From assembly GCA_003217735.2 (NCBI GenBank), contig CP031585.1:434001-498000 (forward strand): a stretch of 64,000 nucleotides of DNA, read 5' to 3'. How positions within the stretch are numbered: position 1 is the first letter of the stretch; each line of letters starts with the position of its first letter. This document shows positions 27,659 to 30,399 of this stretch, piece after piece. The position numbers and the translations under genes are program-made. Source of the stretch: Marinibacterium anthonyi. Lineage in GTDB: Bacteria > Pseudomonadota > Alphaproteobacteria > Rhodobacterales > Rhodobacteraceae. The notes under the pieces are model-generated. The model was not told where the DNA came from, did not search any database, and saw only the letters and a list, made by a program, of their open reading frames with translations.

Positions 27659-28477
27659 ATGCGCATCACCGGTTGGATCCTTGCGGCGGGGCTGGCGCTG
27701 GCCGGTACACTTGGTGCGGCGCAGGACCACGTGATGCAGCGGCTCGACACGATGGATGCGGCACGCGGATGGGAGGCGGTCGGGCGGCTGAACCTCAACG
27801 GCACCGGCTTTTGCACCGGCGCGCTGATCGCGCCCGACCTGGTGGTGACCGCCGCCCATTGCCTTTACGACAAGCGCAGCCGCACACGGATCGACCAGCG
27901 CGGGATCGAGTTCCTGGCCGGCTGGCGCGACGGCCGGGCCGAAGCCTATCGCAACGTGCGGCGCGCGGTGGTGCATCCCGATTACGTCTACGCTTCGGAC
28001 ATCACCGCCGAACGGGTGCGCAACGACCTGGCCCTGCTGGAGCTGGACCACCCGATCCGCAACACAACCGTCATCCCGTTCGCCACCGCCGCCCGTCCGC
28101 GGGCGGGCGACGCGGTTGGCGTCGTGTCCTATGCGCGCGACCGGTCCGAGGCGCCATCGCTAGAAGAGGTCTGTGACATCATGAACCGCCAGGAGGGCGT
28201 TTTGATCATGTCCTGTTCGGTGGATTTCGGATCCTCCGGTGCGCCGATCTTCTCGTTTGCCAACGGGACGCCGCGGATCGTTTCGGTGGTTTCGGCCAAG
28301 GCCGAGCTGGACGGGCAGAACGTGTCTCTGGGCACCACGCTGGACGGGCCGCTGGACGTGCTGAAGGCGGAACTGGCCGCCGGCAGGGGCTATGGGCTGG
28401 CCCCCGCGCCGCTGGCGAACCGGGTCGGCGTGGGCAAGGGGCGCAACGACACGGGCGCCAAGTTCATCCGGCCCTGA
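27659..28477 (+). CDS. Secreted trypsin-like serine protease
   Basis: The 272-residue product has a signal peptide (MRITGWILAAGLALAGTLGAAQD) and a chymotrypsin-fold domain. The catalytic triad is visible: His67 in VVTAAHC, Asp123 in RNDLALLEL, and Ser193 in GSSGAPIF. Cysteines near the histidine and before the serine could form the usual disulfides. It resembles V8/glutamyl endopeptidase-like periplasmic proteases; there is no PDZ domain, so it is not a DegP. GGAG precedes ATG 27659. It is a single gene. Confidence 0.87.
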   Translation: MRITGWILAAGLALAGTLGAAQDHVMQRLDTMDAARGWEAVGRLNLNGTGFCTGALIAPDLVVTAAHCLYDKRSRTRIDQRGIEFLAGWRDGRAEAYRNVRRAVVHPDYVYASDITAERVRNDLALLELDHPIRNTTVIPFATAARPRAGDAVGVVSYARDRSEAPSLEEVCDIMNRQEGVLIMSCSVDFGSSGAPIFSFANGTPRIVSVVSAKAELDGQNVSLGTTLDGPLDVLKAELAAGRGYGLAPAPLANRVGVGKGRNDTGAKFIRP

Positions 28478-28501
28478 CGCCCCGGATCGCTGCGCGGACC
28501 T

Positions 28502-28530
28502 CTTGAAACCGCCGGAAATCCTTCCCATCT
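28502..28530 (+). promoter_or_regulatory. Sigma-32-type heat-shock promoter of hsp20
   Basis: CTTGAAA (28502-28508) and CCCATCT (28524-28530) are separated by 15 bases, matching the -35 and -10 of RpoH promoters (CTTGAAA, CCCCATnT). The nearest gene downstream is the small heat-shock protein at 28633, with about 95 bases of leader. Confidence 0.75.
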
Positions 28531-28632
28531 GATCGTTACCGGGACGCCGATGATCGGGTTCTGGAAACGACCGCCCGTCCGCTGCAGGAGGGCACTTATC
28601 GTGAATTGCTCAGAAGATGAGGATGACGACCC
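28531..28632 (+). ncRNA. ROSE-like RNA thermometer in the hsp20 leader
   Basis: The 3' end of the leader can fold with CTCA (28609-28612) pairing to TGAG (28618-28621) around a GAAGA loop, then G28608 facing G28622 and T28607 pairing with A28623. This places UUGCU (28606-28610) against the Shine-Dalgarno AGGA (28620-28623), the pairing with an internal G-G that defines ROSE elements in rhizobial small heat-shock genes. The ATG follows nine bases later. Upstream bases 28531-28600 contain further complementary segments. A seven-codon frame from ATG 28617 overlaps the start and is probably incidental. Confidence 0.65.
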
Positions 28633-29109
28633 ATGCGTAACAGCTTTGACCTTGCCCCGCTCTATCGTGCCACCGTCGGTTTCGACCGGATCGCCGATAT
28701 GATGGACCGCGCCCTTGCCACCGATGGCAGCGCGCAAACCTACCCGCCTTACAACATCGAAAAGACCGCCGACGATACCTATCGCATCTCGATCGCCGTC
28801 GCGGGCTTTGCGCCCCGTGACCTGACGGTCGACGTCAAGGATGGCGCCGTGATCGTGGCCGGCCGCAAGGCCGAGGACCAGTCCGAACGGGCCTTCCTGC
28901 ATCGTGGCATCGCCACCCGCGCCTTTGAACGCCGCTTCCAGCTGGCCGATCATGTGCGCGTGACGGGCGCATCCCATGCCGACGGCATGCTGCACGTTGA
29001 CCTTCAGCGTGAAGTGCCCGAGGCCCTGAAACCCCGCCGGATCGAGATCGCGACCTCTTCCGCGGCTCCGATCGAAGCCGACGTGGTGGACGCCAAGGCC
29101 GTCAACTAA
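28633..29109 (+). CDS. Small heat-shock protein, Hsp20/IbpA family
   Basis: Hsp20 proteins hold unfolding proteins in oligomers. The 158-residue protein starts RNSFDLAPLYRATVGFDRIADMM, a start typical of IbpA-like class A members, then has the alpha-crystallin domain (YPPYNIEKTADDTYRISIAVAGF to VRVTGASHADGMLHVDL), in which the usual A-x-x-x-n-G-x-L motif appears as ASHADGMLHV. The C-terminal I-x-I motif is visible as IEI in PRRIEIATS. Transcription from a sigma-32 promoter and translation behind a ROSE-type hairpin are both suggested by the leader. Confidence 0.93.
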   Translation: MRNSFDLAPLYRATVGFDRIADMMDRALATDGSAQTYPPYNIEKTADDTYRISIAVAGFAPRDLTVDVKDGAVIVAGRKAEDQSERAFLHRGIATRAFERRFQLADHVRVTGASHADGMLHVDLQREVPEALKPRRIEIATSSAAPIEADVVDAKAVN

Positions 29110-29133
29110 GCCTTACCTCGTGAAGACCAGGAC

Positions 29134-29160
29134 GGCCCGGGAGAGATCCCGGGCCTGTTT
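29134..29160 (+). terminator. Terminator of hsp20
   Basis: GGCCCGGGA (29134-29142) pairs with TCCCGGGCC (29147-29155) around GAGA, followed by TGTTTCGTT. It lies 25 bp past the hsp20 stop and 10 bp before the end of the convergent P450 gene, so it may serve both. Confidence 0.75.
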
Positions 29161-29169
29161 CGTTGCGCC

Positions 29170-30399
29170 CTATTCCAGAACCACCTGCATTTCCGACGCC
29201 GTGCGGATGGCGCTGAAGCCGCGCAGGGTGGTTGGCGGGCCGTCGAACCGGGCATTGGGCGCCAGGCGGGCCAGCGTCTTGATCGCCTCTTCCAGCTGGA
29301 TCCGGGCCAGCGATTCCCCGATGCAGCGATGCACGCCGAAGCCAAAGACCGGATGCAGGCGCGGATGGTCGGTGCGCGTGATGTCGAAGGTGCCGGGATC
29401 GGCATAGACTTCTGGGTCGCGCAGCGCCGCCATGACCGAAGGCGTGATCACCGAGCCGGGCGGGATGGCGTAACCCTCGATCTCGATCTCTTCGGTCACG
29501 ATCCGGGCCAGGGCGCCGATGATCGGGTCGTACCGCAGGCCCTCCTGCACGGCACCGGCCGCGTATTTTTCGGGATCTTCCACAACCAGCGCCCATTGCT
29601 CGGGGTGCTGCAGCAGCTGCGAGAAGATCGAGGTCAGGCTGCCCCGCGTCGTGTCGGACCCGGCCACGACAAGGCCCACGATCTGGGCGCGGATCTCGGT
29701 CTCGTTCAGGGGGCCGTCCTTCACCTTTTCCACGTAGCTGGTCAGGAAATCGCCCCGAGGCGCCTCGCGCCGGCTTTCGATCAGCTTGCGCACGTAATCG
29801 GTGACGGTCTCGACGGCGGCATCGGCCTCGACCCGCTGCGACGCCGGGCAGATGCCGATCCCGCGCGCGGCCACGTAGGCGAGTTCCGAAAATAGCGGCC
29901 CGTCGACCTCGGGCGCCCCGATGACCGAGGCCACGGTGCAGGCCGGCAGCGGCCCGGACAGCCGTTCGATGAAGGGGATCGGGCCTGCGCCGACAAGCGG
30001 TTCGATCATGCGCTGCACACGTTCGGCCACGGCCGGGCGCAGCGCCATCATCAGGGGCTGGGCAAAGGTGCGGGCCAGCGGGCTGCGGCGGTCGCGGTGG
30101 GTCTGGCCATTGGCGAACAGCAGCGCGTTCTCCACCAGCTCATAGCTGGCACCGCCCTTCACGCCCGAGGCATGCATGACCTCCATCTCCATCTGCCGCG
30201 TCCAGCGGTCGTCGAAGAAGTGGTTCAGATGCGCCATCGAGAACGAGGTGATCGTGTTGAACCGGTCGCGCAGGAAGGGCCCCATGCCCCGGCAGCGTTC
30301 GAGATAGGCATGATCGTTCTTCACGCCGATCGCCGCCGGAAACTGCGGCATCTCCCGCACGGGTTTCAGCGACTGTGCCGCGTCGTTCGCTAGTCCCAT
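29170..30399 (-). CDS. Cytochrome P450
   Basis: The 409-residue soluble P450 uses heme and two electrons to oxygenate a substrate. The heme-binding loop FGFGVHRCIGESLAR lies near residue 345, the I-helix oxygen-activation motif VVAGSDTTRG near 240, and the K-helix ExxR as EGLR. Length and motifs fit bacterial class I P450s, which need a ferredoxin and an FAD reductase. None is adjacent; a putidaredoxin-reductase-like flavoprotein lies at 60999. Start 30399 (MGLANDAAQSL) has AGGAG eleven bases upstream. The substrate is unknown. Confidence 0.93.
   Translation of the reverse strand: MGLANDAAQSLKPVREMPQFPAAIGVKNDHAYLERCRGMGPFLRDRFNTITSFSMAHLNHFFDDRWTRQMEMEVMHASGVKGGASYELVENALLFANGQTHRDRRSPLARTFAQPLMMALRPAVAERVQRMIEPLVGAGPIPFIERLSGPLPACTVASVIGAPEVDGPLFSELAYVAARGIGICPASQRVEADAAVETVTDYVRKLIESRREAPRGDFLTSYVEKVKDGPLNETEIRAQIVGLVVAGSDTTRGSLTSIFSQLLQHPEQWALVVEDPEKYAAGAVQEGLRYDPIIGALARIVTEEIEIEGYAIPPGSVITPSVMAALRDPEVYADPGTFDITRTDHPRLHPVFGFGVHRCIGESLARIQLEEAIKTLARLAPNARFDGPPTTLRGFSAIRTASEMQVVLE

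Follow-up and report, generated by a model that had tools for sequence, protein, structure and literature searches.

A predicted ROSE-type RNA thermometer transcribed from an RpoH-type promoter upstream of hsp20 in Marinibacterium anthonyi

In ROSE elements, a U(U/C)GCU sequence in the last hairpin hides the Shine-Dalgarno (SD) sequence and heat opens the hairpin (PMC3669281, PMC11342760); by 2005 more than 40 ROSE-like elements had been counted in alpha- and gamma-proteobacteria (as cited in PMC4166951). Two structures disagree on the core: the NMR structure of a B. japonicum element has a G paired with a G of the SD strand, whereas the crystal structure of the P. stuartii element shows a bulged G, preceded by a U that is paired with G (PMC11342760). 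Rhizobial ROSE elements (RF00435; B. japonicum ROSE1 of hspA) resemble the leader described here in bearing a UUGCU/AGGA core on the last of several hairpins 5′ of a small heat-shock protein (sHSP) gene, on a description drawn in part from PMC11342760 and PMC3669281. The short ROSE-like elements of Pseudomonas ibpA likewise place a U(U/C)GCU SD hairpin after a stable 5′ hairpin, but have two hairpins rather than three (PMC3669281). The E. coli ibpA element (RF01832, ROSE_2) precedes the same type of gene and also sets U(U/C)GCU against the SD. Within the Roseobacter group, ROSE-like motifs 5′ of ibpA and hspD were reported for Nautella sp. R11 in one sentence that carries no alignment or model (PMC3230580); among the publications listed as matches, and as judged by title and the start of the abstract, this was the only one to treat RNA thermometers in the group. 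A ROSE-type thermometer behind an RpoH-type promoter is a known kind, with a Roseobacter case already in print (PMC3230580), and the original prediction that the present locus would extend ROSE to the Rhodobacteraceae was anticipated by the Nautella report.

The locus lies in a 64,000-nt stretch (hereafter the window) of contig CP031585.1 from the 6.8-Mb genome of Marinibacterium anthonyi, and its features are collected in Table 1. The best named relatives of the hsp20 product were found in Lentibacter (80% identity) and Roseovarius (75–78%), in a comparison that possibly left out records of the genome itself; this most likely places the host in the Rhodobacteraceae/Roseobacter group. Among 149 genomes of the family, representing 149 genera, 147 gave a protein match at E ≤ 1e-20. 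As we read the match table, an orthologue (best E ≤ 4e-49) is carried by 141; six others have nothing closer than a more distant sHSP, and two lack any match. The alignment set consisted of the best-scoring 110 of the 141 orthologue leaders, one being skipped as too near a contig end.

Promoters recognised by RpoH have the consensus CTTGAAA, about 15 nt, CCCATNT. This consensus is found at 28502–28530 on the forward strand, with CTTGAAA (28502–28508) and CCCATCT (28524–28530) separated by 15 nt, and the sigma-32-type promoter originally predicted 5′ of hsp20 is thus a perfect one. It was the single match to the pattern in 64 kb and had zero mismatches, with 0.44 matches expected by chance when up to two mismatches were allowed. 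Both the C at −37 and the T at −9 that are overrepresented in R. sphaeroides RpoHI promoters (PMC3441632) are present in the window's promoter under that numbering, and in a search of the genome with an RpoH model one match exceeded the curated cut-off, while two weaker matches fell short of it. A weighted CTTGAAA/CCCATNT score of at least 16 was reached by all 110 orthologue leaders versus 2.9% of shuffles, and a score of at least 18 by 83 of the 110 versus 0.05%, where the range searched was −160 to −60 only, the weights were chosen post hoc from the forms seen and the control was a plain shuffle. A strict regular expression was set aside because it demanded a T after CCCA and thus missed CCCANAT forms, recovering only 27 of the 110. 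A simple scan of 28400–29300 for sigma-70-type promoters gave none. The promoter positions imply leaders of about 76–100 nt in the 110 orthologues (median 90). On the R. sphaeroides RpoHI numbering, transcription would start at about 28539, which is the first base of hairpin I, and a terminator-like hairpin at 29134–29155 suggests that hsp20 is probably transcribed alone.

Table 1. Features of the hsp20 locus, in window coordinates.
Feature	Position	Strand	Evidence
RpoH (sigma-32)-type promoter	28502..28530	+	Pattern search; like promoter in 110/110 orthologue leaders
Predicted 5′ untranslated leader, ~94 nt	28539..28632	+	Promoter position; model R3 match 28536-28638; start from promoter numbering
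Hairpin I, CCGGGAC-G-CCGA/UCGG-GUUCUGG, bulged G 28546	28539..28564	+	Folds; covariation; column counts
Hairpin II, GCCC-G-UCC...GGAGGGC, bulged G 28577	28573..28593	+	Folds; covariation; column counts
Hairpin III, putative sensor, UUGCU 28606-28610 versus AGGA 28620-28623	28599..28629	+	Folds; motif search; core in 109/110 leaders
Shine-Dalgarno AGGA, 9 nt 5′ of ATG 28633	28620..28623	+	Invariant A-G-G-A columns, alignment A1
hsp20 / ibpA-type small heat-shock protein, 158 aa	28633..29109	+	PF00011, E = 7.1e-19; ORF
Intrinsic-terminator-like hairpin 3′ of hsp20	29134..29155	+	1 found, 0.3 expected in shuffles

Folding of 28531–28650 gave three hairpins at −42.4 kcal/mol (z = −2.42), and 6 of 200 shuffles folded equally well. 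The best fold of hairpin III pairs C28609-G28621, U28610-A28620 and U28607-A28623 and leaves G28608 opposite G28622, which agrees with the earlier description of a last hairpin that sets UUGCU opposite AGGA with a G-G mismatch. A second register, in which U28607 pairs with G28622 and G28608 bulges out, is less stable by 0.9 kcal/mol at 37 C (−6.1 versus −7.0 kcal/mol), and in the ensemble of the leader the probabilities of U28607-A28623 and U28607-G28622 are 0.58 and 0.12, respectively. UUGCU...AGGA...ATG matched once in the window against 0.38 expected, and at least one match occurred in 32 of 100 shuffles; judged on the window only, its occurrence is close to random expectation and proves nothing by itself. 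What raises it above chance is that it is conserved in relatives, covaries and is matched by a covariance model built without the window's own row.

A U(U/C)GCU...AGGA core was present within the last 50 nt of 109 of the 110 orthologue leaders, as UCGCU in 106 and as UUGCU in three including the window, which is an off-consensus member both in this and in its longer hairpin III loop. The sole leader without the core (L041) has AUUGCCUGAUGAGGA. In named records from another search, 80 of which were kept out of 572, the motif occurred in 80/80 (UUGCU in four), although these records share some genomes with the 110 aligned leaders. Alignment A1 was made with MAFFT and not fitted to structure, its paired columns being set by hand from column pair counts; 86.2% of its cells were paired compared with 78.5% after shuffling, both sides had changed at 18 of 25 pairs, and 245 such cells were counted compared with 82.2 in shuffles. 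None of 500 shuffles was as high on any of five measures, and when the partners were slid by one column the covariation score, 0.296 in register, fell to 0.159 or 0.123. The comparison of orthologous leaders that had been proposed as a check therefore came out in favour of the structure, with all three helices covarying. RNAalifold on A1 found hairpins I and III and missed hairpin II, since loops of unequal length were misaligned, and its structure was replaced by the hand-set one. Alignment A2 holds 100 leaders, the window excluded, realigned with Infernal; it is fitted to the structure and so biased toward it. In A2, 93.6% of cells were paired, with 97.9% for hairpin I and 99.0% for hairpin II; the outer stem of hairpin III was weakly supported, 27, 51 and 49 of 100 rows being unpaired at the three outermost pairs. 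The bulged G was kept in 110/110 rows in hairpin I and in 107/110 in hairpin II.

We also built a covariance model (R3) from 100 leaders without the window; the starting model and the choice of columns had included the window and nine others. R3 matched the window at 28536–28638 with 56.7 bits (E = 4.8e-10), and on the whole 6.8-Mb genome this match (E = 5.2e-8) was the only one at E ≤ 0.01. The next-best match in the genome (G000 C1 845818–845916, 18.5 bits, E = 3.81) is not directly followed by the start of any ORF longer than 50 aa and was rejected as chance, and a match at 1939–2050 of the window (10.7 bits, E = 1.4) was likewise taken as chance. All nine held-out family leaders were matched (33.6–67.2 bits), as were 139 of the 149 family genomes, for which 39 of the 49 genomes that gave no row to the model is the fairer count. 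Among the 110 aligned leaders the R3 match sits at the start codon. From coordinates compared by eye, it sits at the start of the orthologue for 28 of the other 29, and in the 29th (G146) it is 5′ of that gene, which is divided between two contig ends. The ten R3-negative family genomes comprised two in which the gene is absent, six with a distant sHSP only and two with the orthologue present (G008 and G017). In the leaders of these two (L242 and L243), both missed by R3, UAUCGCUC is kept and GAGGG replaces GAGGA, giving a possible U-G for U-A in the core.

The E. coli K-12 ibpA leader was matched by R3 up to its start codon with 42.6 bits, its hairpins I and II with bulged G aligning to the model as those of the window do. 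Many Rhodobacteraceae have a hairpin II that matches the E. coli one (CCUGUCC...GGAAGG) almost letter for letter, which suggests selection on its sequence beyond pairing. The window differs from E. coli ibpA in its longer hairpin III loop, in having UUGCU and not UCGCU, and in an SD of AGGAU and not AGGAG, and RF01832 (ROSE_2) gave it 13.1 bits against a gathering cut-off of 65. The covariance search with the Rfam ROSE models, proposed with the original prediction, returned nothing over the curated cut-offs in the window: RF02523 (ROSE_3) reached 17.8 of 43 bits, in a register ending at 28606, and RF00435 gave no match, a difference from the rhizobial elements. When the 149 family genomes were scanned at filter settings that sacrifice weak matches, neither RF01832 nor RF02523 passed its cut-off in any of them and RF00435 did so in one, its sole hit lying 5′ of another sHSP gene. 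A more sensitive scan of 20 sister loci gave no match over cut-off and a ROSE match under cut-off in nine, and none of the 19 class-wide non-family loci scanned (of 25 then available) passed the Rfam cut-offs. Given that these leaders show covariation and that one model covers both them and E. coli ibpA, we read this miss as reflecting the limited reach of the Rfam models.

The leader itself carries the sequence and structural features of the class. PF00011 is encoded directly downstream, and the 110 leaders are those of its orthologues; U(U/C)GCU (28606–28610) is imperfectly paired with the SD (28620–28623) in the 3′-proximal hairpin; the three hairpins, within the two to four of the class, covary in relatives; and R3 is a profile in common with known members, matching both E. 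coli ibpA and the RF00435-positive locus (L114; 25.0 bits, E = 0.0022). The ROSE-like leader of the original prediction is accordingly upheld, and we assign it to the biological ROSE class, not to Rfam RF00435, RF01832 or RF02523. The L114 locus (1501–1592, genome G101) is a rhizobial-type ROSE of 53.3 bits, over the Rfam cut-off, 5′ of another HSP20 gene; it was perhaps acquired from outside, and G101 also carries its own ibpA-type element.

Outside the family the same model was run on 385 genomes of the class, 97 of which had a match at E ≤ 0.01, five of them in the family. The 92 non-family genomes yielded 97 R3 matches, and tblastn placed 95 of the 97 5′ of an sHSP gene; since R3 knew nothing of proteins, this placement is a blind test of the model. 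Of the non-family leader rows, 96 of 97 were distinct. Bulged G was again kept, in 97/97 rows at hairpin I and, at hairpin II, in 83 of 86 rows that are ungapped there.

Individual loci outside the family also showed other arrangements, the remaining two of the 97 matches being L309 and L265. Upstream of a ClpB-like gene (Clp_N) there is a weak R3 match of 31.1 bits (L309:501–597, minus strand), which lacks the strict UYGCU core, reading ACCGCU instead, and has a second SD-like sequence, GGAG, closer to the start codon. A ROSE-like leader of 42.0 bits (L265:61–156) precedes a 59-aa lipoprotein-like ORF and not an sHSP gene, and its genome (G473) has another R3 match 5′ of hsp20 (L125). In G447 C1, two apparently identical leader copies with an sHSP gene (L313 and L314) lie about 860 kb apart and score equally.

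M. anthonyi has a second sHSP gene (L002; G000 C1 4044329–4044691), 46% identical, with an RpoH-like promoter and UCGCU opposite the SD; R3 gave no match on this leader. UCGCU and an RpoH-like promoter were found at this second gene in 10/10 genomes inspected, its own and nine others (L229–L237), the SD being AGGA in five and AGGG in five. Nautella R11 belongs to the same group and apparently has the same two genes, and in M. anthonyi cores are likewise found 5′ of both sHSP genes.

The geometry of the core could be read in two ways. One is that the window's core works through a G-G pair of the kind seen by NMR in B. japonicum rather than through a bulged G beside a pyrimidine-purine pair; we consider this reading plausible without adopting it. 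It would fit the rhizobial structure (PMC11342760), the UUGCU form of the window and the best fold, in which G28608/G28622 with U28607-A28623 is the better register by 0.9 kcal/mol at 37 C. The relatives speak against it: the register that covaries among them is the bulged-G one and not the window's best fold. In a structure-fitted alignment of the 97 non-family leaders, the base before the G and its SD partner were C-G in 53, U-G in 32, U-A in 12 and C-A in none, and the G itself was G in 97/97, a pattern that fits the bulged-G crystal form with its U-G pair (PMC11342760). The 12 U-A cases are spread over nine families, four of them in one family, and the association gave a Fisher's p of 3e-5 with kinship ignored. 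In the family, the same position is nearly fixed (C-G in 106, U-G in 3 and G-G in 1 of 110). Taken class-wide, the counts favour a real pyrimidine-purine pair with a bulged G.

Whichever geometry applies, the hsp20 leader very probably acts as a ROSE-type RNA thermometer, with its transcription driven by an RpoH promoter. The basis is the conservation of promoter and structure, the covariation and the covariance model in common with E. coli ibpA; what we infer for M. anthonyi is where transcription starts, that melting falls in a suitable range, that expression depends on RpoH and that translation is controlled. At growth temperature, hairpin III would pair UUGCU with the AGGA ribosome binding site, a pairing that would be weak by design because a conserved G is without a Watson-Crick partner, so that heat could open the hairpin and let ribosomes load. 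Heat would also lift RpoH-driven transcription, and the two controls would add up, while hairpins I and II are predicted to be stable and probably steer the folding of hairpin III. Simulated opening of the SD between 25 and 42 C rose about fourfold both in the full leader (3.7e-4 to 1.4e-3) and in E. coli ibpA (6.3e-3 to 2.4e-2), stayed shut in a copy with a perfectly paired core, rose eighteenfold, more than wild type, in a copy with the anti-SD disrupted (2.6e-3 to 4.7e-2) and did not rise in hairpin III alone (4.4e-3 to 3.1e-3), in an energy model that ignores special core contacts, and the simulation as a whole does not single out a thermometer.

This last result would also suit a conserved structured RNA with a non-thermal role, such as mRNA stabilisation by 5′ hairpins or the binding of a protein or small RNA, in which pairing of the SD was incidental and control was by RpoH only. 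Hairpins I and II are well paired in the structure-fitted alignment (97.9% and 99.0% of cells), the retention of their bulged G (110/110 and 107/110 rows) exceeds the needs of a plain scaffold, and the part played by 5′ hairpins in ROSE elements is described as incompletely understood (PMC3669281). We nevertheless consider such a role improbable as the whole explanation: few parts of the leader are as constrained as the anti-SD/SD core (109/110), and the model is common with E. coli ibpA, which is named among the best studied ROSE-like thermometers (PMC3669281). This evidence is compatible with an extra role that the leader may have beside that of a thermometer. That a GC-rich leader merely happens to set UUGCU opposite the SD, as the 0.38 matches expected on the window alone and the modest z-score of its fold might allow, is refuted to near certainty by conservation in 109/110 orthologues, covariation equalled by 0/500 shuffles and 56.7 bits from a model without the window's own row.

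Beyond the thermometer itself, we tentatively raise the possibility that the alphaproteobacterial ibpA-type leaders form one ancient ROSE subtype in common with E. coli, with a bulged G in each of three hairpins. The sensor of this subtype would be the bulged G beside a true pair of the U(U/C)GCU pyrimidine with the SD, not a G-G pair; hairpins I and II would be selected beyond scaffolding, and the subtype would be nearly universal in the family while lying under the Rfam cut-offs. If so, hairpins I and II would perhaps be further heat-labile modules or contact sites. The approximately 200 leaders bear on the disagreement between the NMR and crystal structures, and mutating one position would make it testable. 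What is new here is the near-universality of the leader in the family, the blind spot of Rfam and the class-wide covariation of the core: in one bacterial family the main small heat-shock gene almost always sits behind a ROSE-type leader that goes unreported by present RNA-family models.
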